NCBI RefSeq assembly: GCF_026410255.1
Contig: NZ_JAPMLL010000002.1
Coordinates: 1-64,000 of the forward strand
Length of the DNA stretch: 64,000 nt
Origin: Xanthomarina sp. F1114
GTDB lineage: Bacteria > Bacteroidota > Bacteroidia > Flavobacteriales > Flavobacteriaceae
Direction: 5' to 3'
The number at the start of each line of letters is the position of its first letter. Positions within the stretch are counted from its first letter, which is position 1. Shown here piece by piece: positions 6,001-64,000 of the stretch. Below the pieces are notes generated by a model, which saw nothing but the letters and a program-made list of their open reading frames with translations, was not told the origin of the DNA and did not search any database. The position numbers were made by a program, and so were the translations under genes.

Positions 6001-9000
6001 GTTACATCGGTGGTTACGTTATTTATTGGAGTTGTAAAACCAATGGTTGCGCCACCAGGCTGTGCCAATAATCTCCATTGGGATGTAACATCAGCTGGGA
6101 TTGCTGCATTTCCTGCTGTTAACGTAACTGTTGTAGTATCGGCATTACAAATAGTTTGGTCTGGTCCAGCATCGGCATCTTCACTTGGACCGTCTGAAAT
6201 TGTTATTGTTGTTTGTTCAGAATTATTACAAGCTGCTCCTGCTCCGGAGTAATCTGTTGTAAACTCATAAACATAAACACTTCCGGCATCTACTGGAGCA
6301 TTCGCCGTATTACTATTACTAGGCGATTGACTTGGTGCATAAGGCGCAATGGTAGCAGGGTTTGTATTACCATCTACAGATACTATTGTCCATGTTCCAG
6401 TTGTACCTGCTGTTGCTTCTAAGAAAACACTTGAAACTTCACATAGTTCTTGGTCTCCAATTGGCTCTACAGGTGCAAAAACATCTACTGTAACATCGGC
6501 TGAGCTATTAGGACAAATTGGCGAACCACTAACTGTTGTCCATCTAAAAACATAAGATCCCGTAGTTAAGCCAGTAATATTTATTGAATTATTTCCTGGA
6601 TTATCAATTGTTGGAGAATTAGGTCCTGAAACAACAGTCCAAGCTCCCGTTTCTGCATTTGGATTCAATAAAGGATCTGCAACAAGAGTTGTATTAGTTT
6701 CTGCACACAAAACTTGGTCTCCTCCTGGAATAACTGCAGGTGTTGCAGGAATCCCTACTTCAATAACAACTTGATCGGGAGTTCCTGAAACCACGCAATT
6801 TCCGTATGCTATCTCCCATTCAAAAACATAGATTCCATCTAATAAATCTGTAAATGTTGCAGTTGGGCTATTAATATCGTCTACCGTATAACCTCCCAAG
6901 CCAGAAACTAAGTTCCAAGTTCCTACGCCTCCAAAAGGTTCAGGATCGGTTGCATCCATTGTAAACGACATAAGTGCTGGATCTAAGCATAAGGCCTGAT
7001 CTGGTCCAGCTGCTACATTTGCACCCGTATCGGCTACAACAACTTCAACAGTATCCGTAGTGGCATCACATCCATTTGGCGCTGGGGCAGTATAAGCTAT
7101 TTCCCATTGAAATTCATATTGTCCAATTACTAAACCAGTAACTTCTGAGGTTGGACTATTCGGATCTGTAAAACTAACAGCAGACGGACCTGATATTTGT
7201 GTCCATGTTCCTGTTTCGTCTATATCAGGTGTACTTCCAGCCATATTAGAAATGGTTGTAGTTCCCGATGCAAAACAAGTATCTTCTCCAGCATTAGCTA
7301 TAGAAGGCGACTCGTCTGCTGTTGTAGTTATAGTAACATCATCTGTTGCTGCTGGTCCACAGTTTACATAATCATTTAAAATAGACCAAGTTAAAGTATA
7401 TACTGTTGATGGTGAAGAAAACCCAGTTGCAATGGCATTTGGATCGTTTATATCTGAAAATACAATGCCAGGGTCTGAAGCTGTCCATGTTCCTGTTTGA
7501 CTGTCTCGAGGTGTATTAGCGGACAATTGTACTGGTCCATTGTAACAAATAATTTGATCTGCACCAGCTATAGCAGGCTCATTACTTAAAGGTGACACAA
7601 AAATACTTGTATCTGAAGTTGCATAAGGCCTACAGCTTATTCCTGAAGAAACTGTGTATCTAAAAACATATTCGCCTGGAATAAGTCCAGATAAAGTGGT
7701 TGTCTGAGCATAAATATCTCCAATTGTAGCTGTATTTGGTCCTGATACTTGAGACCATACAGATTTCTCACCTAATTGAATAGCACTTCCAGCTAAAGTT
7801 CCATCTACCTGCCCACAAACAAACGTTTGATCAGATCCAGCATTAGAACCAGATGTTGGCGTTGAAACAAAAATATTAAGAGATGCATTAGCAACATCAC
7901 AACCTAATAGTAAATTACCAGAAGCGGTTCTTCTAAAATTAACAGCATAAACTCCTGAAACGTCAAAAACATCAATAACAGCAGTTCCTGTGCTAGAGCC
8001 CCCTAAATTAACATAATCTGTAGGAAATGTTAAGGCAGAATCTGCTGGTCCACTTACAATACTGAACTCGGTTCTATTCCCTCCTGTACTACTATATGGC
8101 ACTTCAATAGAAGTTCTTCCACATAGACCAATAATGTCTCTCCCAGAATTTACATCAATACTCACCGGGGTTACGCTATATCTAATATTAACAGTAGCTG
8201 TAGTTAAACATCCTGTTATTGTATTTGTTATTGTGTATCTAAATTGATAAGAGTTAGGAGAAGAAAGACCGGTTACCTGGGTTGTACTACTTGTAGGACT
8301 AACTATTGTAGCACTAGGACCAGATATTTGTTCCCATAATACAGATTCATTAGTAAAATCTGGGGTGGAACCAATTAAAGTTGTTTCGCTGATTGAAGCA
8401 TCACAAAAACGTTGATTATCGTTAGTTATCACGGCTTGAGTAACATCTTGAGTTGCTGGTGGCACAGTAACTGTAACCGTATCTGTTCCCGTAACACAAG
8501 GTCCTGCTACACTCCATCTAAAAACATAAACTCCTTCTACTAAACCACTAACTCCAGTAGAATTATTATTTGGATCTGCAATATTTGGGTTTGAAGGCCC
8601 GCTAACAAAAGTCCAGGTTCCAACTTGACCATTAATATTATTACCTCCAAAAGAACCATTTAAAGTGGTACTTTCATTTACGGTATAACAATTTGATAAA
8701 ACCTGGTCCGCACCGGCATATACAGGTTGAATCCCACCATAATTAGTTACTGTAATTTCTGAAATAGATTCGCAAAAACGCCCTGGAGCATATTCGGCCC
8801 CAATAATTGTCCAAGCAAGCGTAGTGCTCCCTGCAGATCCTTGAGGTAATGATATAGTTGAAGTTGGAGAGTTTGGCTGATTAATTACAACTCCTGCACT
8901 ATTATCTCCTAGAATGGACCATTGTCCAACTTCACCTGAATTAGCTGGCGTATTAGCACTAATAATTAAGGAGCCCGAACTATCTGGGCAGGAAGACACA

Positions 9001-9395
9001 TCTAATCCTGCATCTGCAATTGTTATAGGTTCCACCGTAAAAGTTACGGTTTGAGCAGGTCTTGCTCCATTAAAACAAACTGCTGATAATTCAAACACAT
9101 AAGTGTTTCCACCAGAGAAACCTGTAATAACAGGGTTGTCAATTGTAGGATCACTAATTATTACAGAAGGCCCGGAAATTTGAGTCCAAATTGGTCCCTC
9201 TGCGTAAGAGTCTGGCGTATTACCATCTAACTGAAAAGAATCGTATGCACAAATAGATTGATCAAGTCCAGCATTTATTGTACAAGATTGCGCGTTTACA
9301 GAATTAATTTTAAAAAGCAAAATAAGAACTAAAAACACAAGTGTTTTTAAACCATTCCAATTAATTCCATTTTTGGTTAAGTAATTTTTGTTCAT
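1..9395 (-). CDS. Giant multidomain cell-surface protein (PKD/Ig-like + DUF11 repeats), 3' end beyond window
   Basis: This is one open frame of about 3131 codons from an ATG at 9395 to the left edge; reading the frame at both ends gives the same phase, so no frameshift is needed. The N-terminus has a signal peptide (hydrophobic stretch ending NAQS). Residues about 30-1430 hold roughly 15 modules of about 95 residues with the pattern AGxDQxLC, GxWxxxSGP, xxVxGLxxGxYxFxW and a second Cys, like PKD/Ig-like domains of flavobacterial adhesins. From about residue 1432 on there are at least 12 modules of about 135 residues of the DUF11 type (SDLELTKxV, VGDxVTFTI, ATGVxVxDxLPxG), joined by acidic linkers such as [13 protein letters not shown] that resemble Ca-binding thrombospondin-3-type sequence. 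Proteins of this build are usually type IX secretion substrates ending in a gliding-associated C-terminal domain; that end lies outside. The gld genes at 26.5-31.2 kb fit that route. The specific function is unknown. Confidence 0.93.
241..4745 (-). repeat. DUF11-module tandem array with acidic linkers
   Basis: Twelve acidic linkers lie about 400 bp apart, near 250, 640, 1040, 1450, 1860, 2275, 2680, 3075, 3485, 3895, 4300 and 4695. Each encodes a variant of [19 protein letters not shown] and separates modules of about 135 residues. Two linkers (near 640 and 2680) lack the GDQS part. Confidence 0.85.
631..1908 (-). repeat. Three-module segment duplicated 2037 bp away (copy at 2668-3945)
   Basis: Several landmarks fall at exactly 2037 bp offset (679 codons, in frame): 631/2668, 811/2848, 1204/3241, 1611/3648 and 1861/3898. 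The last shared run, 1852-1908 against 3889-3945, is identical over 57 bp including synonymous sites, and similarity then drops sharply. This points to internal duplication or gene conversion inside the giant gene. Confidence 0.8.
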
Positions 9396-9790
9396 GAAAT
9401 ATATTTTAAGAGCTGTTTTTTGAGATTACAAAAATAGAAATACTTCCTATTTTCTTAAATTTATCAGAAAATTAATATTTTATTTAGTCAAAATACAAAT
9501 ATCACCGATGAATAACACTTCTTTTTGTGTTTTAAAAAGTTTATTTTCAAATATTTATATAGCTTTAATGAAAACTAAACTTAAAATAATATTAATTACC
9601 TTTTACGTCCTGTATTTTTTATTAGCAATGCTTTTTTTATGCTTAAATTTAAGTTTTAATTGCTTAAATTTCTATTCATTTGTGTAACATAAACACTTTT
9701 TAATATCAGTCTATTTATTTAAATAAAGAATAATTTCTATATCGCAATTATTCCTGTCGATTGCCAACATAAACTCTCATATAAAAAAAT
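9396..9790. other. Divergent intergenic region
   Basis: This AT-rich spacer lies between the giant surface gene (minus) and the GNAT gene (plus). I see the minus-strand -7 element at 9429-9436 and no open frame or RNA gene. No clear TAnnTTTG box is visible for the plus-strand gene. Confidence 0.6.
9429..9436 (-). promoter_or_regulatory. -7 element (TATTTTTG) of the giant surface gene
   Basis: On the minus strand the sequence matches the Bacteroidota -7 consensus TAnnTTTG. It lies 33 nt upstream of the ATG at 9395, which predicts a leader of roughly 25-30 nt. No perfect -33 TTTG is present. Confidence 0.5.
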
Positions 9791-10360
9791 ATGATTCAAA
9801 CTAGAATTGGAAGAAAGGAAGATATAAATGGGATTCTCAGTCTTCAAGAAAAATATCTATTCAAAAACCTTAATAAGATAGAACGACAAGAAGGTTTTGT
9901 AACAACTCCATTTACTGCTAACCAAATTGAAGAAATAATAGAACAAAATGGAGTATTTATTTCCTTAAACGAAAAGAATAAGCTTATTGCATATGCTTTT
10001 GCTGGAAGTTGGACCTATTTTGAGCAATGGGAGATTTTCAATTTTATGGTCTCACGCTTTCCTAAATTATCCTTTCATGGACAAAAAATTACCACAGAGA
10101 ACAGCTTTCAATATGGCCCCGTTTGCATTGACAAAAAGTATAGAGGAAAAGGATTATTAAATTTAATTTTTGAAGAAATGAGAGTTGAATTCCTAAAAAA
10201 GCATCCTATTTCTATAACATTTATAAACAAAGTGAATGTTATTTCTGAAAAAGCACACACCAAAAAGTTGGGCTGGGAAATTATAGATGAATTTGAATTT
10301 AATAACAACTCCTATATTGCACTTGCTTTTAATATGACGCATTCTGTATTAATGTTGTAA
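9791..10360 (+). CDS. GNAT-family N-acetyltransferase
   Basis: The 189-residue product would transfer an acyl group from acetyl-CoA to an unknown amine. The acetyl-CoA binding signature is seen at about residues 110-130: a beta strand (YGPVCID), then KKYRGKGLLNLIFEEM, which fits the GNAT R/Q-x-x-G-x-G/A motif A. N-terminal RIGRKEDINGILSLQ is typical of the family's first strand and helix. It is cytoplasmic and has no signal. The ATG follows an AT-rich leader with no Shine-Dalgarno sequence, as is normal in this phylum. The next gene starts about 75 nt downstream, so co-transcription is possible. The substrate cannot be read from the sequence. Confidence 0.8.
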   Translation: MIQTRIGRKEDINGILSLQEKYLFKNLNKIERQEGFVTTPFTANQIEEIIEQNGVFISLNEKNKLIAYAFAGSWTYFEQWEIFNFMVSRFPKLSFHGQKITTENSFQYGPVCIDKKYRGKGLLNLIFEEMRVEFLKKHPISITFINKVNVISEKAHTKKLGWEIIDEFEFNNNSYIALAFNMTHSVLML

Positions 10361-12382: not shown

Positions 12383-14482
12383 CTATTCTTTAGATTTAAG
12401 AAATTTAGGATTTATATACAGTTTGCCATCTTTTAGTTTCTGCCAGTAAACCTTCATATCTGCATTTATTTCAGGAGCCATAATGTACAATCCTATAATA
12501 TTTGGGAAAGACATAGCTAAGATCATCATATCGGCAAAACTTAATACAGCCCCTAAACTTACAGAAGCACCCAACACCACAAAACCTAAGTACATTAGTT
12601 TATAAACCAATTCAAGTTTCTTACTTCTTCCAAAAAGGTAACTCCAAGAACGCATGCCATAGTAAGACCAGGAAACCATGGTGGAAAAAGCAAATAGAAA
12701 TACAGCTATGGCTAATACTACTGGAAACCAAGTAACAACGCTACCAAAGGCGTCAGCTGTTAATTCCACTCCTCCTAATCCACTACTGGTTACATGTTTG
12801 CCTGTAAATATTAAAACTAAAGCAGTCATGGTACAAACCAGCATGGTATCTATAAATGGCTCTACTAAAGAAGTAAAACCATCTGCAATAGGATAATTAG
12901 TTTTAGAAGCACTATGGGCAATTGCAGCAGAACCAACTCCTGCTTCACTAGAAAAAGCAGCCCGTTGCAGACCTATAATCAGTACTCCAATAAACCCTCC
13001 TTTTAAAGCTTCAGCAGAGAAAGCTCCGTCAACAATAGCAAGCAAAGCACCGCCAAGATATTCAAGATGATGACCTATAACCACTAAACAGCCTAGCACA
13101 TATAAAATAGCCATAACAGGAACTACTTTTGCAGTTACATTAGCAATACTTTTAATTCCCCCAATAATGACTGCTCCTACCAGAGCTGCAAAACCAATTC
13201 CGAACCAGAATCCCTGACCTTGTAAAACTGGAATTTGTTCTGATACTATTTTAAAAGCTTGATTAGATTGCAACATATTACCACCTCCAAAAGATGCTCC
13301 TACTCCAAGAACAGCAAAAAGTATAGCTAAGAATTTCCCCAAACGCTTTAGATTTCTTTTTTCTAAACCATAACGTAAATAATTCATAGGTCCACCAAAG
13401 ATGCGTCCTTCTTTATCAATAAATCGGTATTTTACTCCCAAAGTACATTCGGCAAATTTTAAAGACATTCCGAAGAACCCTGCAAGAAACATCCAAAAAG
13501 TAGCTCCTGCACCACCTAAAGATATTGCAACAGCAACCCCTGCAATATTCCCTAATCCCACTGTAGCCGATACAGCAGTAGCCATAGCCTGAAAATGCGT
13601 TATAGTTCCAGGTGCATTTGGATCGTCGTATTTCCCTCTTGCTAAATCTATGGAATGTCGGAAACCACGAATATTTACAAATTTTAGACGCAGAGTAAAA
13701 AATATACTTCCAAGAATAAGCCAAACAACAATAAATGGAATGGTATTCTTTTTAATATCTCCATTGGGATGTAAGAGAGGTTGAGGAGAATCGAATTCAA
13801 TTAGTCCTAATACAGGAGCTTTATAAGAACCTATTTCAGGCATTCTAGAAATTGTACTTCCTTTTTCTGATACCTGTTCTAAAACACCATCAGCTGGAGC
13901 ATAAATAGGCAATTCTATGTTATTATTACTTTCTAGCAATGCAAGCTTCTCTCCTTGTTTAACTTGTTCTCCTTCGGCTACTAACCATTTTTTTACCTGG
14001 TATTCCTCATTCGTTTTCACATCGCTTGTTTGCAGCGTAATATCTCTATGAGAGGCATAAACAACGGGGTCGTATACACCCAGAGTAGCAAAAGCATCCC
14101 AAAACAGAACAGCTCCTAACACATCTACAGCTGGCTGCACTTTACTATTAAAAATTTCGGTAATTGATTTTGCCGGGATAGTAAATTCCTTAGTAATTGT
14201 ATTTCCTGAAGCATCACTAACAACAACAGAGTGCTCCATACCTTCAATCAACCCAACCGATTCTACTGAATCTATGGAGGTATTTACATTACTCCATTTG
14301 TACTCATATGGTGCTGTACCTCCTTCTACCTGAATAATTGCAACTCCATTATTTATTTCGGAGGACGGATTTATTAGTTCCAAGTTTACAACCATTTCAC
14401 CGGTGGATTGAGCTTGAGCTATAGCATTAGTAAAAGTAAAGAGTAACAGTGCCCAAAAGGCAAAACATCTGGTATTTATCAT
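12383..14482 (-). CDS. AgcS-family sodium:amino-acid symporter with N-terminal Ig-like and barrel-sandwich domains
   Basis: Residues about 245-690 are a normal alanine/glycine:cation symporter: RLKFVNIRGFRHSIDLARGK, then THFQAMATAVSATVGLGNIAG, GPMNYLRYGL and AFSSEAGVGSAAIAH. Ahead of it are a signal peptide (residues 1-24), an Ig/SprB-repeat-like domain (about 35-105, VEGGTAPYEYKWSN) and a putative first membrane helix (about 115-140). A biotinyl/lipoyl-like barrel-sandwich domain follows (about 150-230, VAEGEQVKQGEKLALLES and APADGVLEQV). The place where carrier proteins have the modified Lys in MKM reads NNNIEL, so covalent modification is unlikely. The extra domains should lie outside the inner membrane. 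The usual family length is about 450-550 residues, so 699 is long. The substrate is probably alanine or glycine, by family only. Confidence 0.88.
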   Translation of the reverse strand: MINTRCFAFWALLLFTFTNAIAQAQSTGEMVVNLELINPSSEINNGVAIIQVEGGTAPYEYKWSNVNTSIDSVESVGLIEGMEHSVVVSDASGNTITKEFTIPAKSITEIFNSKVQPAVDVLGAVLFWDAFATLGVYDPVVYASHRDITLQTSDVKTNEEYQVKKWLVAEGEQVKQGEKLALLESNNNIELPIYAPADGVLEQVSEKGSTISRMPEIGSYKAPVLGLIEFDSPQPLLHPNGDIKKNTIPFIVVWLILGSIFFTLRLKFVNIRGFRHSIDLARGKYDDPNAPGTITHFQAMATAVSATVGLGNIAGVAVAISLGGAGATFWMFLAGFFGMSLKFAECTLGVKYRFIDKEGRIFGGPMNYLRYGLEKRNLKRLGKFLAILFAVLGVGASFGGGNMLQSNQAFKIVSEQIPVLQGQGFWFGIGFAALVGAVIIGGIKSIANVTAKVVPVMAILYVLGCLVVIGHHLEYLGGALLAIVDGAFSAEALKGGFIGVLIIGLQRAAFSSEAGVGSAAIAHSASKTNYPIADGFTSLVEPFIDTMLVCTMTALVLIFTGKHVTSSGLGGVELTADAFGSVVTWFPVVLAIAVFLFAFSTMVSWSYYGMRSWSYLFGRSKKLELVYKLMYLGFVVLGASVSLGAVLSFADMMILAMSFPNIIGLYIMAPEINADMKVYWQKLKDGKLYINPKFLKSKE

Positions 14483-29847: not shown

Positions 29848-31218
29848 TTAATTAGTTACTGCATTTTGAGTTACTTCTGTTCCCATATAATCTTGAACAG
29901 TTCTAAATCCAATATAACTTCTCGCAGAATCTGCGTATTCGTAATCTCTAGAGCTTACTTGTAAATAGTATTTTACATCTTTCCAAGATCCTCCACGAAC
30001 AACTTTACGTTTGTTATTAATATCGTTAACACTAGGGTTAATAGTAGAAACATATTCGTAAGAAGCAGGATCGTAAGATGCACTTACCCATTCTGACACG
30101 TTTCCAGCCATATTGTATAAGTTAAAGTCGTTTGGCTCGTAAGATTTAGCTTCAACAGTATATAAAGCTTGATCTGCAGCGTAATCTCCTCTTAAAGGCT
30201 TAAAGTTTGCCATAAAACAACCTCTGTCGTTTTTTGTATATGGACCACCCCAAGGATAAGTAGCAGCTTGAAGACCTCCTCTTGCAGCATATTCCCATTC
30301 AGCTTCTGAAGGTAATCTATAAGAGTTTACAAAATGTTGTTTTCTGCTTTTTCTATAAGAATTATGATACAAAGTTCTCCATTGACAAAAAGCTTTTGCT
30401 TGTGTCCAAGAAACTCCAACTACAGGATAATCTCCGTAAGCATCATGCCAGAAGTAATCGTTGTGCATTGGCTCATTATAAGAGTATGCAAAATCTCTAA
30501 TCCAAGCAGTTGTATCTGGATAAATCTCTACTTCCTCCTTAATAATAACATCTTTTCTTTTTAAAGATCTATTTTTAGCGGCTTTCTCGATGTCCATATA
30601 AGTGTATTGAAACTTAAATTTAGTAACATCCCAAGTTCTTTGACCATTATATGATTCCTCAAGTGGAATATACATAGTATCCATTACCTCAGCATAATAC
30701 TCATCTGGATAATCTGCCGTGTCAAATAAAATTTCAACATCGTGATTCAGTTTTCTTCCTTCGTAACCAGTTGGCCCTAGACCACTATAGTTATCATACA
30801 TGTACTTTTCGTAAACAGTCATGTTTTCAGGATCTGAATCTTTAAAAGCGTATTCTCCAATACCTCCGTTTCCAGGAACTTCTCCAATTTCATCAGCAAG
30901 AATAGCTAATTTAGTTCTAATTGTAGAATCTCTTACCCAATTTACAAATTGACGATATTCGCTATTTGTAATTTCTGTAGCGTCCATATAGAATGACCTA
31001 ACAGTTACTGTTTTAGAAGGCGCATCATTAATACCTGCTAAATCGTCGTCTGCTTTACCCATTATAAAGGCTCCACCAGGCACTAACTCCATACCAAAAG
31101 GCTGTTCAGGATGCCACTTCTTTCCTTTAACACCCACTAACTGACCTCTGTCTCCAGAGCCACAACTAGCTAAAAATGTTAAAACTGCGGTTAATAAAAT
31201 AAACTTCTTCATATCCAT
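29848..31218 (-). CDS. gldK: Gliding motility / type IX secretion lipoprotein GldK
   Basis: The 456-residue protein has a lipoprotein signal (TFLASCGSG, Cys near residue 19) and a formylglycine-generating-enzyme-like fold (FGMELVPGGAFIMG, YFWHDAYGDYPVVGVSWTQAKAFCQWR, RLPSEAEWEYAARGG, NLYNMAGNVSEWV, RGGSWKDVKYYLQVSSRDY). It acts as an outer-membrane-anchored ring subunit with GldN, not as a sulfatase activator. It is the first gene of the operon. A Met two codons into the frame is an alternative start. No clear TAnnTTTG box is seen in the 93 nt before the upstream terminator. Confidence 0.95.
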   Translation of the reverse strand: MDMKKFILLTAVLTFLASCGSGDRGQLVGVKGKKWHPEQPFGMELVPGGAFIMGKADDDLAGINDAPSKTVTVRSFYMDATEITNSEYRQFVNWVRDSTIRTKLAILADEIGEVPGNGGIGEYAFKDSDPENMTVYEKYMYDNYSGLGPTGYEGRKLNHDVEILFDTADYPDEYYAEVMDTMYIPLEESYNGQRTWDVTKFKFQYTYMDIEKAAKNRSLKRKDVIIKEEVEIYPDTTAWIRDFAYSYNEPMHNDYFWHDAYGDYPVVGVSWTQAKAFCQWRTLYHNSYRKSRKQHFVNSYRLPSEAEWEYAARGGLQAATYPWGGPYTKNDRGCFMANFKPLRGDYAADQALYTVEAKSYEPNDFNLYNMAGNVSEWVSASYDPASYEYVSTINPSVNDINNKRKVVRGGSWKDVKYYLQVSSRDYEYADSARSYIGFRTVQDYMGTEVTQNAVTN

Positions 31219-58164: not shown

Positions 58165-59511
58165 TTAACCTGTTGGGTTTAACCAATCCGTATCTAATTT
58201 TGCCTTACTTTTTTCTTCCAAGGTTTCAAAGTACTGTTTCCTGGAAGCTTTTAAGGCAGATAAAAGCGCACTAGAATTACTTAATGCTGGTCTTTCATTT
58301 TGAAATAAATTTGCCATTAGCTGACTGTATTCCCTTTTTAAATCTTCGGTGCCGTAGGTCTTTAAAAAATAATCAAAACTCTGCTCCTCGAGATCTAAAT
58401 GCAACATCCATTTTGTAAGCTGTTCTAAAAATCCTCGCGCATTTTTTTGTCTTAAAGCACGTGTTACCTTGGTAAATAAATATTTTTCTGAATGCAAATA
58501 AGCTTGATACTTCTTTTTACTAAACGGGATAAACCATTTCAATAATTTAATCAGTACATAAATTGCAAGCAATCCAAAAATAACCAGCAGCAAAAACCGT
58601 TTAGGCGTCATCCCTAAAATTAAAAATGGTTTATCTTCAGCTACTTCTGGCTCTGTTGTTTCTGCTTCTAATTGTTTTTTAATACTGGCTAACATTTCCA
58701 AATCTGCGTTTGGCGCTACTTGTATAACTGTGGAATCAATTGTTTTTTTATAAAAGCGTTTGTTATAATAATTCCAATACACAAATTCAATTTTTGGTAA
58801 TACCACTTCGCCTTCTTTTTCAAAAAGGTAATTAGCCATTTCCACCCGACTAGCAGAAACTGCTGTTTTAGACTTATGGGTATTGGTTTTAGGTCGGGTA
58901 TTATAAATACTTACTCCTGGCACAGAATCCCATGTAACGGCTGGAATAAATTCTGAAAGTGTTCCAGCTGCAGAACGGGTAATAGTTCTTTGTAAAACAT
59001 CTCCAACCTTAACATTTTTAAGAGAGGTATTCCATCTTTCAGTAATATTAAGCGAACTGGACACCAACCAATTATTTGGATCATAACCTACTGGTACATC
59101 ATTAACTTGAATAGATTTTGGCTTGGTATGTATGGTATGTTTAATGCCTTTATAACCTCCAGGTTTAGGAGATTCTACATGAATAGTCAGTTCAGGAACA
59201 GTAATCTTCCCTGCCCTAGTTGGAAATACATTATAAATAAAATCTACTCCCGAAAATTGTTTCCCACTAAAGGTTCTCGAATTAGAAACCGAACGAAAAT
59301 AAACGGTTAAAGCACCTTCCACCTGAATATTTCCAACATCAATCCCTGTGGTAAACCAAGTATTAGAATATACCGAAACTGTCATCTGTACGGGTTGACC
59401 TATATAAGCGGTATCGTGGTTTAGCGAAACATAACTAATAAGTTGTTGCCCATAAGTTTGAACACTTATAGCAAACATCACAAAAACGATATATTTTAAT
59501 TTGCCTACCAT
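58165..59511 (-). CDS. batD: BatD family protein
   Basis: The 448-residue protein has a signal peptide (to TYGQQ) and beta-rich BatD/oxygen-tolerance-type domains (YIGQPVQMTVSVY, FIYNVFPTRAGKITVPELTI, GDVLQRTITRSAAG). It has one membrane helix (about residues 305-328) and a cytoplasmic helical tail. It is the fourth gene of the Bat operon, whose members are thought to act together in envelope stress or aerotolerance. Its ATG overlaps the end of the batB-batC gene by 7 nt. As the IS lies upstream, its expression may be reduced or driven from within the IS. Confidence 0.85.
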   Translation of the reverse strand: MVGKLKYIVFVMFAISVQTYGQQLISYVSLNHDTAYIGQPVQMTVSVYSNTWFTTGIDVGNIQVEGALTVYFRSVSNSRTFSGKQFSGVDFIYNVFPTRAGKITVPELTIHVESPKPGGYKGIKHTIHTKPKSIQVNDVPVGYDPNNWLVSSSLNITERWNTSLKNVKVGDVLQRTITRSAAGTLSEFIPAVTWDSVPGVSIYNTRPKTNTHKSKTAVSASRVEMANYLFEKEGEVVLPKIEFVYWNYYNKRFYKKTIDSTVIQVAPNADLEMLASIKKQLEAETTEPEVAEDKPFLILGMTPKRFLLLVIFGLLAIYVLIKLLKWFIPFSKKKYQAYLHSEKYLFTKVTRALRQKNARGFLEQLTKWMLHLDLEEQSFDYFLKTYGTEDLKREYSQLMANLFQNERPALSNSSALLSALKASRKQYFETLEEKSKAKLDTDWLNPTG

Positions 59512-60580
59512 TCGTTAGGTGTTTTTTCTGCTTCTACCTGTTTTTTCTTTATCTGATATTTAAACTTTTTTGTTAAAAACAAAGCGGGATCATCATCGAC
59601 TTTTCGCATTAATACGTTTTTTGGAACGCCTCCTTCTCCAGCTTTAAAATCGTCTGGTAATTCATCTAATTCTTTTCCTTTGCGTTTATCAGTTGTGGTT
59701 TCTTCTTCCAAACGTTTTTTCTCCATATCCTTTTTGGTGGCTTCCTGCCCTCCACCACTTAAGTCTTCCTGAGATGTATTCTTCTCGTTCTTAGCATTGG
59801 GTTTTTCTTCATTTAATTGCGCATCCTCAGGCATAGAGCTTTCCATACTGGAGATAGCTTGCTTTATCTCATTTAAATTATTTTGAGCCTCTTCAAAATT
59901 CGGGTCTCTCTCTACCAAAGATTCAAAAACCTCTTGAGACTTTTCAAGGTTCCCCAATTTGGCATAGGTCAATCCTAAATTATATAAACCCACATTAGAA
60001 CTGTCTTTTTCGAAAGCAGTTTTGGCACTCAAATAATCACCTTGTTTAAAATAGGATACACCTTGATGCAACGGGTCTTCATATAATTTGGCTGCAGACG
60101 CATAATCGCCTGCATCAAAAGCTTGTTGTCCTTGATACCCTTTTGTGTACCATAAATCTTTAAAACTAGTCTTATCTGTTACCTCATCATCAGAAGCTTT
60201 GGTACATGAGGAAAAACTTATCAAAAACAATACACTATAAATAGCCCAGCCTTTTCTAAAACTGAAAGCAAATAATATTAAAACCGGAATAATAAGCCAG
60301 AAGCCATTGTCTTGCCAATTCTCTTCATCGTCTTTAGGTTTTTCTTCAAAAACCAGATGTTTGCTAATATCTTCAGCTAATAATCTCACGTCGCTATTGT
60401 CTAAAGACATATCTAAAACATGTACGTTTTCAATACTTTTTAAATTGTCTGCTACGGCTTGATTACGTTGTGAACTAACAACCTTTCCTTTATTTTTTAA
60501 GGGAATTTTATGGTTGTAAAATGAAGGGATCGTTCCGCCAGACATGGTTGCCATAGGATACACGTTTAAAACCACATTGT
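59505..60580 (-). pseudogene. batB: 3' part of the IS-split batB-batC fusion gene
   Basis: This is the remainder of the gene interrupted at 60581. It begins in the VWA domain (VVLNVYPMATMSGGTIPSF), passes a membrane helix (NGFWLIIPVLILFAFSF) and continues without a stop into a BatC part. The BatC part has FSSC, then TPR repeats (residues about 145-235: QQAFDAGDYASAAKLY, GLYNLGLTYAKLGNLEKSQEVF) and a charged tail. A GTG at 60575 is the only early start, so it may still be made as a truncated protein. Removing the IS and one target copy restores a single frame of 582 residues with the 5' part. Confidence 0.9.
60577..60580 (+). repeat. Target-site duplication TTGT, left copy
   Basis: This 4-bp direct repeat matches 61834-61837 on the other side of the IS3-family element. 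Confidence 0.85.
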
Positions 60581-60639
60581 TGGAGTGTCTATATTTGTTG
60601 TGACAACTTAATTAAGCCCTAAATGATTAAATTTAACAT

Positions 60640-60921
60640 ATGGCAAGAAAACATGAAAACGATTTTAAGGTTCTAATCGTAGAATTAGTAAAATCAGGTA
60701 GACCAATTAAAGAGGTATGTACTGAGTACGATCTAAATGACAGTATGGTTAGGCGATGGAGAAGAGAATACGAAGCTAAATCAGGTGACTTTACTAAGAA
60801 AAAGGAGTTGTCTCAAGAAGAAATAGAATTGAAGGCCTTGAAAAAGGAGCTTCGAGAAATAACCATGGAACGCGATATATTAAAAAAGGCAGTAAGCATC
60901 TTCTCCAAGAACGACAGGTAA
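60640..60921 (+). CDS. IS3-family transposase OrfA (HTH protein)
   Basis: The 93-residue protein has an N-terminal HTH (FKVLIVELVKSGRPIKEVC, LNDSMVRRWRREYE) and a leucine-zipper-like C-terminus (QEEIELKALKKELREITMERDILKKAVSIF). It binds the IS ends. The slippery heptamer A-AAA-AAG at 60882-60888 lies in the correct phase near its end and would shift some ribosomes into the OrfB frame. Confidence 0.92.
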   Translation: MARKHENDFKVLIVELVKSGRPIKEVCTEYDLNDSMVRRWRREYEAKSGDFTKKKELSQEEIELKALKKELREITMERDILKKAVSIFSKNDR

Positions 60922-60968
60922 GGTATCAATTTATTTCAAATAACATTGATAACTATACAGTCGAGAGG

Positions 60969-61802
60969 ATGTGTAAATGCATGGAAGTTAGTAGAAACGC
61001 TTATTATAATTGGGAAAAAACAAAAGATCAGATTCTTGAGAAAGCATCTCGTGTTCTATTGAAAGAACACATACGCTTGATTTTTAATAAAAGCAGACAA
61101 ATCTATGGTAGTTATAGAATTCAAAAAGCGCTGGAGAGAGAAAAGCTTTTCTATAGTCGTTCATATATAGCCATATTAATGAAAGAAATGGGTTTGAAGA
61201 GTGTTTTAAGAAGAAGGCACAAAATAACAACGGACTCCAATCATTCATTTGGGATTTCAGAAAACAAGCTAAATAGGGAGTTTGATAGCTCGAAACTTGG
61301 GCAGAAATGGGTCTCTGACATAACATACATTAGAGTTAACAATGATTGGAACTACTTAACGACAATAATAGATTTGGCTGATAGGAAAGTCATAGGTTGG
61401 TCATTAAGTGAGGATATGACCACCGAAAATACGATTATCAAAGCATGGCTTCACGCTAGATCAAGCAGAACTATTAGTCCTGGGCTTATTTTTCATTCGG
61501 ATCGTGGAGTACAATATGCATGTAATAAAATGGTTAACCTCTTTTCTTTCAACAAAAAAGTTGTCCAGAGCATGAGTAGAAAAGGAAATTGCTGGGACAA
61601 TGCTGTGGCTGAGAGCTTTTTTAAAACAATTAAAAATGAATGGTTATACCGTTTTAAATACACCACTTACTCCCAATTGCATAGTTCTGTAGAAGATTAT
61701 ATAAATTGGTATAATAATGAAAGACTACATTCATCTCTAGGGTATATTTCCCCTCTAGAAATGGAAATTAAATTAAGAGGGAAAACTAATAAAGTGGCTT
61801 AA
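60969..61802 (+). CDS. IS3-family transposase OrfB (DDE integrase core)
   Basis: The 277 residues from the first ATG carry the HTH_21-like region (HIRLIFNKSRQIYGSYRI) and the DDE core. The catalytic residues are Asp in WVSDITYI near residue 117, Asp in FHSDRGVQYA near residue 178, and Glu in DNAVAESFFKTIKNE near residue 214. The frame is open back to the slippery site at 60882, so the working product is probably the OrfAB fusion made by -1 frameshifting. The stop codon lies within the right inverted repeat. Confidence 0.93.
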   Translation: MCKCMEVSRNAYYNWEKTKDQILEKASRVLLKEHIRLIFNKSRQIYGSYRIQKALEREKLFYSRSYIAILMKEMGLKSVLRRRHKITTDSNHSFGISENKLNREFDSSKLGQKWVSDITYIRVNNDWNYLTTIIDLADRKVIGWSLSEDMTTENTIIKAWLHARSSRTISPGLIFHSDRGVQYACNKMVNLFSFNKKVVQSMSRKGNCWDNAVAESFFKTIKNEWLYRFKYTTYSQLHSSVEDYINWYNNERLHSSLGYISPLEMEIKLRGKTNKVA

Positions 61803-61833
61803 AAAAAATGTCACAAAATTAGTAGGAATTCCA

Positions 61834-61837
61834 TTGT
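61834..61837 (+). repeat. Target-site duplication TTGT, right copy
   Basis: This is the right flank of the IS, identical to 60577-60580. Confidence 0.85.
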
Positions 61838-62510
61838 TCTGCTGCATAAAAGCACTGACTTTCTGAGTTTCCAAACCCTCTAAGTCGTCCGTAAATAAGA
61901 GGATTTTACCTTCAGCTTGATTATCCACAAATAGACTGTCCAAATTTGTAAACAGATTATCGAAGCCTGTGCCTCGTTTGGGCATCATACTAGGTTTTAA
62001 ACCGTCTAAATGATCTAAAATAATTTTATAATCGGTTGTAAATGGCACTACCGTATGGGTAGAAGCTGCAAACACCTGAAGTGCTGTTTCTGCTCTGGGA
62101 TTGGCCTCTAGAAAATCCTGTATTTTAAATTTAGCACGTTCCAAACGGGTTGGAGACACATCTGTAGCCATCATACTTTGAGATAAGTCTAAAGCAATAA
62201 CTAGCTGCGATTCCAACTTTTTTGTAGGTTGTTTTACTTCTTCCCAGGTAGGACCTAAAAAACCTATAAAAGCAATTCCAAATAGTAAAAACAAGGATAA
62301 ATGAATCATTCTTGATTTCCAAGACGTTCCTTTCTGAATAACATAGGGCCTTAAGTGTTTTGCAATATGTTTTTTCCAACTTGATTTTTCTGAATACACC
62401 AAGACACCCAAAAGTAAGATAATAGCCAAAGGAATAGCCAACCACATATATTCTGGTCTTAAAAAATGGAATTTCTCCCAATCGATATGTTTTAATTGCT
62501 CTATCATCAA
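61834..62510 (-). pseudogene. batB: 5' part of the IS-split batB-batC fusion gene
   Basis: This part has two membrane helices (about residues 18-38 and 70-88) and the start of a VWA domain. Its metal-dependent adhesion site DLSQSM is near residue 110, with FAASTHTVVPFT and LLFTDDLEG downstream. The reading frame runs 20 codons into the IS and stops at 61773. It starts with an ATG that shares ATGA with the end of batA. The last native residues are QQNN, which join directly to VVLNV of the 3' part when the IS is removed. Confidence 0.92.
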
Positions 62511-63499
62511 TCTCGCCTAAAACGTTTAAACAGTAAGATTAAATTATTCATCAAAACAATAAAAGCCGCTAAAGCCAAAGCTGCTCCCAACGGAATGTAG
62601 TATAATAAGGTTTTGGGTATAAAGCTCTCTTCTTCATATTCTATAGGTTCTAGAGTATCTAATTCGGTATAAATATTTTCTAACCCTTTGGTGTCTTTTG
62701 CTCTAAAGTATTTTCCCCCAGTCATCTCTGAAATTTCCTGTAGCGTGCGTTCATCTAAATCAGAAGATGAACTTCCTGGATCACCTATTCCAATAGTATA
62801 AATTACGGTCGAATCTTTTTTAGCCAGATTAGCTGCATCTAAAGGTAAAATAGCTTCTCCACTATCCACACCATCGGTTAAAAGTAACATGACTTTGCTT
62901 TGGATAGTATCTCTTTGAAACAAGTCCATCCCTTTAACTATGGCTTTTCCAATGTTGGTCATTTGTCCAGCCATGCCAACATCGGCTTCATCCAGCATGG
63001 TTTGAATGGTTTTTAAATCGGACGTAAAAGGCGCTTGTATATAAGCGTTACTTCCGAAGAAAACCAAGCCCATTCTATCACTTTTTCGATTTCCAATAAA
63101 TTCGTGCATGATGTCCTTTACGGCCGCCCAGCGCGTGACGCGTTTACCATCCAAAACCCAATCGGTATTAGCCATACTAAAACTAATATCGGCTACTATT
63201 AAAAAATTCCTCGCTGTTTTAATCTTTTTTTCTGGTTTGCCTACTAATTCTGGGGAAGCTAAAGCTATGAGCAACAATAGCCAGATTGTATACATAAGAA
63301 TCCAACTAAACCAATTTCTTTTTTTTATATAGGATGCTCTCTTTGGTTTTTGATTGGTGACTTCTGCAGCCCGATGAAAATAAGGAAATTTTAGGGCAGT
63401 ACTTCTGTTTTTTATAGGTGGTAACAACCAATAAATTATGAGTGGCAACGGAATTAAAAGTGCCACTAATGGATATGCAAATTGAAAATTATCAGGCAT
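62507..63499 (-). CDS. batA: VWA-domain membrane protein BatA
   Basis: The 330-residue protein has two N-terminal membrane helices (about residues 8-25 and 62-80). The VWA domain has an intact MIDAS (VADISFSM near residue 99; LLLTDGVDSG near residue 205), and a final membrane helix lies near residue 305. BatA and BatB are paired VWA proteins of the Bat complex. The gene overlaps both neighbours by a few bases (8 nt upstream, 4 nt downstream), so the operon is tightly coupled. Confidence 0.92.
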   Translation of the reverse strand: MPDNFQFAYPLVALLIPLPLIIYWLLPPIKNRSTALKFPYFHRAAEVTNQKPKRASYIKKRNWFSWILMYTIWLLLLIALASPELVGKPEKKIKTARNFLIVADISFSMANTDWVLDGKRVTRWAAVKDIMHEFIGNRKSDRMGLVFFGSNAYIQAPFTSDLKTIQTMLDEADVGMAGQMTNIGKAIVKGMDLFQRDTIQSKVMLLLTDGVDSGEAILPLDAANLAKKDSTVIYTIGIGDPGSSSSDLDERTLQEISEMTGGKYFRAKDTKGLENIYTELDTLEPIEYEEESFIPKTLLYYIPLGAALALAAFIVLMNNLILLFKRFRRD

Positions 63500-64000
63500 G
63501 ATGTTTAATCCATTTTAGTGACATTTGAAAAAATGCTTCTTTATTAAAATTCGTATTATTAAAAGTTTCTTTATATACAGCATTAGCAATGTCTTCCTTA
63601 TAGGTTTTAAAATGACTACCTCTAACCTCAGCATCTAAAAATTCCAACCAGGCATCGCCTTCTAAAGAAGCCACTTTTTCACGTTGATAAGACTGTAAAG
63701 CTGTACGTTTTAAAATAAAAACACATTTGGTAATAAACAGCATTTCCGGAAGTTTAGGATCTTGCTTTAAAGTCTTTATTTCAGCAACAGCATCGCGTCT
63801 GTATTGATTGTGCTTGTATTTTAAATAAAGTCTATAAATACCGTAAAGAATCAGTACGCCTAAAATAACAAATACTACTTTCCAACCTATGGTATTAAAA
63901 GAAAAAGCAATAGGATCTGGTTCCATGATGTTCCCCAATTCTAATGGAGCAACTTCCGGATCTTGAATTAAAGCGATATGTGCTAAATAAAAACTCAAAT
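63492..64000 (-). CDS. DUF4381-like membrane protein of the Bat operon, 5' end at or beyond window edge
   Basis: At least 168 residues are visible, open to the right edge. The only start inside the window is a TTG at 63998, so the true start probably lies outside. The visible N-terminus looks like the end of a signal peptide (FYLAHIALIQDPE). A membrane helix follows (GWKVVFVILGVLILYGIYRLYL), then a basic cytoplasmic helical domain (RRDAVAEIKTLKQ, WLEFLDAE), the layout of DUF4381 proteins encoded ahead of batA. Confidence 0.8.
   Translation of the reverse strand, partial: LSFYLAHIALIQDPEVAPLELGNIMEPDPIAFSFNTIGWKVVFVILGVLILYGIYRLYLKYKHNQYRRDAVAEIKTLKQDPKLPEMLFITKCVFILKRTALQSYQREKVASLEGDAWLEFLDAEVRGSHFKTYKEDIANAVYKETFNNTNFNKEAFFQMSLKWIKHHA

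Follow-up and report, generated by a model that had tools for sequence, protein, structure and literature searches.

An IS3-family insertion in batBC of an accessory, sulfatase-linked Bat-type operon in Xanthomarina sp. F1114

The window analyzed here, i.e., the first 64,000 nucleotides of contig NZ_JAPMLL010000002.1 (C22 in our numbering) of Xanthomarina sp. F1114 (GCF_026410255.1), carries a Bat-type operon whose fused BatB-BatC gene (batBC) is interrupted by an insertion sequence of the IS3 family, and the locus raises the question of which function the strain has lost. The insertion by itself is routine; the interest lies in the operon, which is accessory and linked to sulfatase genes. We consider it probable that the element entered the accessory batBC and disabled an operon assisting a sulfatase, and that aerotolerance is kept by the canonical Bat operon of the same genome. 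The host genome was available as a single draft assembly (56 contigs, 99.87% complete), and comparisons were made with a family set of 299 genomes and a smaller set of 40 genomes that includes the host.

The element spans positions 60581-61833 of the window (1253 bp, + strand) and is flanked by two copies of the target duplication TTGT (60577-60580 on the left and 61834-61837 on the right). Its limits are fixed independently of TTGT, since the best copy outside the host among the 299 family genomes (genome G041, locus L003; 80% identity over 1256 columns) has exactly the same end points on both sides. Shorter ends (TGTGACA...TGTCACA), which would leave no target duplication, were rejected because the L003 copy puts the termini further out. 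Inverted relative to each other, the termini agree at 19 of 30 positions. The element carries orfA (60640-60921, + strand, HTH_Tnp_1) and orfB (60798-61802, + strand; open frame 60798-61799 plus the stop, with an ATG at 60969), the latter for an rve-type transposase; the transposase domains are Pfam rve (PF00665) and HTH_21, and the score against the NCBIfam model transpos_IS3 (NF033516) is 278 bits (cut-off 160). The two frames are in -1 relation and their overlap (60798-60918) contains an A6G run at 60882, which suggests a predicted -1 frameshift fusing orfA with orfB. The paired frames with the A6G overlap, the rve-type transposase, the inverted ends and the 4-bp target duplication are all shared with the IS3 family, and nothing in the element is unusual when compared with its known members. 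A search of the host draft genome revealed no second copy of the 1253-bp element. An earlier note, made from the sequence of the window, had described an IS3-family insertion of this length, position and duplication, and the ends, the G041 copy and the NCBIfam score bear it out.

Alignment, domain matches and a structural model identify the flanks as the two parts of one gene on the - strand. The N-terminal part (61834-62510) encodes the bulk of the VWA domain together with membrane helices, while the C-terminal part (59505-60580) encodes the last VWA strands, a membrane helix and the TPR region. The element cuts the gene after about residue 225. When aligned separately, the halves abut on the intact genes of relatives, the first ending at residue 226 and the second, of 356 residues, joining from its residue 1 (e.g., 7998-8675 and 8676-9749 in locus L068, and likewise in L069); this agrees with the original frame of 582 residues reconstructed in the earlier note. 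Its statement that no other decay has occurred is supported insofar as neither half contains a stop or a frame break. The frame of the N-terminal part reads 20 residues into the element and then stops, and the open frame of the C-terminal part reaches back into the element, with a GTG at 60575 as its first in-frame start. The broken gene now encodes a VWA protein that is cut at the insertion point and extended by these element-encoded residues, and the downstream TPR part could arise only through re-initiation.

Regarding the VWA domain, which the note had described as split, the Pfam VWA_2 core match (103-208) ends before the insertion point, and the splitting is therefore deduced from the structure that AlphaFold2 predicts for the uninterrupted BatBC of Bizionia echini (11-sequence alignment; mean predicted local distance difference test score, pLDDT, of 64; predicted template modelling score, pTM, of 0.40). 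Helix 214-223 and strand 226-232 flank the site in this model, in a block with pLDDT 86-88. The model thus places the insertion inside the VWA fold, so that the upstream part is missing the end of that fold as well as the TPR region and the membrane helix that comes later.

The broken gene belongs to an operon which, read past the window edge, has the order moxR-DUF58-DUF4381-batA-batBC-batD. Within the window lie batD (58165-59511, - strand, PF13584), which overlaps the end of batBC, batA (62507-63499, - strand), recognized by domain matches including VWA, and the DUF4381 gene (63492-63998, - strand), recognized by a domain match; the DUF58 gene (C22:64001-64936) and moxR (C22:64965-65933) are just outside it on the same contig. 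MoxR is an AAA_3 ATPase with its lid (PF07726 and PF17863), encoded together with VWA proteins (PF00092/PF13519). A paralogous, canonical set with open frames is present on contig C11 of the host (locus L063) and consists of moxR, a DUF58 gene, a 560-aa gene, batA, batB, batC, batD and batE, the names batC and batE having been assigned from gene order and TPR matches. Both operons contain MoxR, DUF58, two VWA proteins, a TPR region and BatD. In the accessory one, however, BatB and BatC are fused, no batE was seen, a short DUF4381 gene stands in place of the 560-aa gene, BatD has 448 instead of 593 aa, MoxR belongs to a separate lineage and a sulfatase gene is adjacent. The host accessory proteins are only 32% (BatA), 23% (BatB) and 49% (MoxR) identical to their canonical counterparts, while the accessory MoxR is 92% identical to that of the B. 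echini accessory operon.

The two operons also differ in distribution. A BatA/BatB-type match was found in 39 of the 40 genomes of the smaller set (host included), and the fused BatB-BatC in eight, counting the broken copy of the host; among the eight genomes of the genus, only the host and G302 have it. Strong, short DUF4381 genes (>78 bits), which we used as the marker of the accessory operon leaving weak matches (<37 bits) uncounted, occur in 22 of the 299 family genomes and, in a phylum-wide sample of Bacteroidota, in one of 395 genomes, namely the host. A MoxR tree was built from 45 proteins, covering 21 of the 22 accessory family loci (all but G246), 14 of 15 loci on plasmids of other taxa (L155 has no moxR) and 10 of 20 canonical loci. 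It sets the 10 canonical proteins apart from the other 35 (support 100/100, branch length 1.9); several plasmid branches are long and their placement is unsure. Judging from sequence comparison, the broken operon is a diverged accessory Bat-type operon with its own MoxR lineage. That the strain is without Bat function in general is not supported, and loss of all Bat function is rejected because the canonical operon on C11 has open frames. The observation made in the note is confirmed, and its interpretation is partly supported.

Two observations on the canonical operons may be added. Frames of about 550 aa with weak DUF4381 similarity are found in many family genomes (in the host at L063 11062-12744); most of them are probably the canonical gene that stands between DUF58 and batA, which may correspond to the short DUF4381 gene of the accessory operon. 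In genome G205, canonical batA and moxR (locus L140, C1:2383000-2402000; 9333-10195 and 12918-13933) each lie in two overlapping frames, as if frameshifted, through either decay or an error in sequencing.

The earlier note had also called the event recent and had considered the possibility that all relatives carry it. The gene is uninterrupted in 20 of the 22 accessory-operon genomes, i.e., in all assessable ones other than the host (it is cut by a contig end in G066 and split in the host), and G302, of the same genus, has it as one frame of 584 aa. If the flanks have been unconstrained, their freedom from stops bounds the neutral change since insertion to about 3% when substitutions only are considered, and to less than 3% once indels are counted at assumed rates. 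A recent insertion is thus plausible, while the event is undated. The ratio of nonsynonymous to synonymous change (pN/pS) was 0.11-0.14 in the N-terminal and 0.19-0.28 in the C-terminal part, alike with or without the host sequence, a weak comparison since synonymous sites are near saturation. Scanning of the element revealed no terminator-like site and nine promoter-like sites against 6.8 expected (standard deviation 2.4), which is near chance level. A polar effect on batD, as raised in the note, is possible.

The genomic neighbourhood hints at a possible function for the accessory operon. Directly upstream of the host moxR, and on the same strand, is a gene for a 503-aa sulfatase (C22:66064-67575, PF00884). 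Its translation contains CTAGR, which we take to be a motif of the formylglycine type. PF00884 has two further matches in the host genome, both of them 785-aa proteins on contig C54, which makes three in all. Of the 22 accessory loci, 14 have a sulfatase gene on the moxR strand no more than 5 kb upstream of moxR, whereas none was found at the 20 canonical loci (Fisher p = 7e-6, kinship ignored). The latter are the moxR loci of the accessory-operon genomes except G066 and G194; the upstream stretch seen was 4.2-9.8 kb, only 4.2-4.7 kb in four of them. Random placement would lead to an expectation of 0.32 sulfatase-linked accessory loci, clustering and kinship ignored. A HAD-family hydrolase gene, homologous to those of the plasmid clusters described below, is near 12 of the 22 loci (host copy at C22:71205-72284), and a homologue of the formylglycine-generating enzyme (FGE) near four.

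Similar neighbourhoods were observed on plasmids of other taxa. We examined 15 loci, hand-picked for taxon spread from the 25 listed among 109 plasmid records matching the accessory BatA, with the profiles applied to the family loci. Within 9 kb, on either strand or side, a sulfatase gene was found in 10 of them, a HAD gene in nine and an FGE homologue in seven. One Rhizobium and one Agrobacterium plasmid carry, in a single direction, arylsulfatase-moxR-DUF58-DUF4381-VWA-VWA-BatD-FGE-HAD. Homologues of FGE and HAD are repeatedly found next to the module among Alphaproteobacteria, and also in a Betaproteobacterium. In Persicobacter psychrovividus the accessory module is present on three different plasmids (L149, L150, and L151), with an arylsulfatase gene near each. 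The stretch fetched from a Paracoccus plasmid (L155, 4078-8911) is without moxR, DUF58 and DUF4381, and genes for IS66 and IS3 transposases lie directly upstream of its first VWA gene; here, too, mobile elements may have damaged the module.

A mechanism can be proposed by analogy. In the NorQ/NorD system, a MoxR ATPase and its VWA partner remodel a client so that metal can be inserted into nitric oxide reductase (PMC13036017). The accessory operon likewise encodes a MoxR-type ATPase with VWA proteins, and the same client-remodelling logic may apply; it differs from NorQ/NorD in that its VWA proteins are membrane-bound and have TPR and BatD partners, and in that the client is deduced from gene order. 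In this scheme, the operon would form an AAA+ MoxR/VWA helper machine, performing ATP-driven remodelling through a VWA adaptor, and its client would be the neighbouring sulfatase or the maturation of that sulfatase. We infer this role from the NorQ/NorD analogy and the neighbourhood together. A single-copy IS3-family element jumped into the accessory batBC and duplicated TTGT; on this reading it would have disabled the helper, while aerotolerance would stay with the canonical operon. A broader proposal, which we put forward only tentatively, is that the DUF4381-type MoxR/VWA/BatD operon is a dedicated machine for the assembly or activation of formylglycine-type sulfatases in Bacteroidota and Proteobacteria, often plasmid-borne, and that the host would be a natural knockout of its VWA-TPR subunit. 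We found no account of sulfatase linkage for a Bat-type or MoxR operon in the open-access literature, but this silence says little about whether one exists.

Several points weigh against a role in sulfatase function. Six of the 22 accessory loci are without a same-strand sulfatase gene in about 10 kb upstream, and in two more the contig ends after only 0.2 and 2.7 kb. Twelve sulfatases encoded at accessory loci served to build the sulfatase profile, which may therefore favour such loci; it recovered 10 of 12 PF00884-positive loci, the two missed being weak. Nine changes of the sulfatase label are required on the MoxR tree, versus 15.3 after shuffling; the label is therefore clustered, but the linkage has, on this reconstruction, been gained or lost repeatedly. 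Four of the 15 plasmid loci (Catenovulum, Photobacterium, Paracoccus, and Sagittula) have no sulfatase, FGE or HAD gene. The PF03781 proteins near the operons of G107 and G126 score 261 and 267 bits, and nothing comparable turned up in the host genome, where the family is matched by GldK, GldJ, a 403-aa frame and an FGE-like protein of 258 aa; no anaerobic maturase reached the cut-off there either, so activation of the host sulfatase may not follow the usual route. The near-saturated synonymous sites leave selection on the broken batBC poorly testable, and no experimental link between a Bat-type protein and a sulfatase was found in the open-access literature. The sulfatase module of the host may already be reduced, and possibly for this reason the insertion was tolerated. 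As a separate observation, the window carries at 29896-31092, on the - strand, a gene for GldK/PorK, which belongs to the machinery of type 9 secretion and gliding (596 bits, cut-off 350).

One alternative, which we judge unlikely, is that the linkage is passive, the operon and the sulfatase genes travelling together in polysaccharide-use or plasmid clusters without joint function. Such an explanation would fit the numerous PF00884 genes of several genomes (2 to 67 matches per genome), the location of the module on plasmids in several taxa, in one of them near SusC/SusD genes, and the repeated changes of the sulfatase label on the MoxR tree. However, the sulfatase gene is also linked in the three assessable genomes with only two to four PF00884 matches (a fourth, with five, is cut by a contig end and unassessable), and the recurrence of FGE and HAD homologues beside the module in the proteobacterial classes named above argues for more than co-travel.

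Alternatively, the accessory operon could be a second Bat operon with the canonical role in aerotolerance or envelope stress, redundancy allowing the insertion to be tolerated. This is improbable in our view. It is favoured by the identical protein families of the two operons and by work on R. anatipestifer, in which MoxR is reportedly associated with thermal and oxidative stress resistance via the bat operon (PMC11834572). The low identity of BatA and BatB to their canonical counterparts, the separate MoxR lineage and the lack of sulfatase linkage at any of the 20 canonical loci speak against it. A general Bat role of this kind is itself questioned by Leptospira biflexa, in which deletion of all bat genes revealed no protective role against oxidative stress (PMC3557215). 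According to the same study, no specific function of a Bat protein had been shown experimentally in spirochaetes. Finally, an assembly artefact, or an insertion present in part of the culture only, is very improbable: the evidence is a single draft assembly of 56 contigs without reads, but the target duplication is clean, the ends are those of an independent copy, the element is single-copy in the assembly and the flanks are continuous with the genes of relatives.

We thus return to the loss of a sulfatase-associated helper. The most likely effect of the insertion is loss of the MoxR/VWA helper of a sulfatase module and not of aerotolerance, which shifts the predicted phenotype from aerotolerance to a sulfatase-related one or to none. 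For an accessory, sulfatase-linked operon of the Bat type, the label "aerotolerance" misleads. The recurring neighbourhood of sulfatase, HAD and FGE-homologue genes points to what such a MoxR/VWA machine may act on, and Xanthomarina sp. F1114 would offer a natural loss-of-function case.

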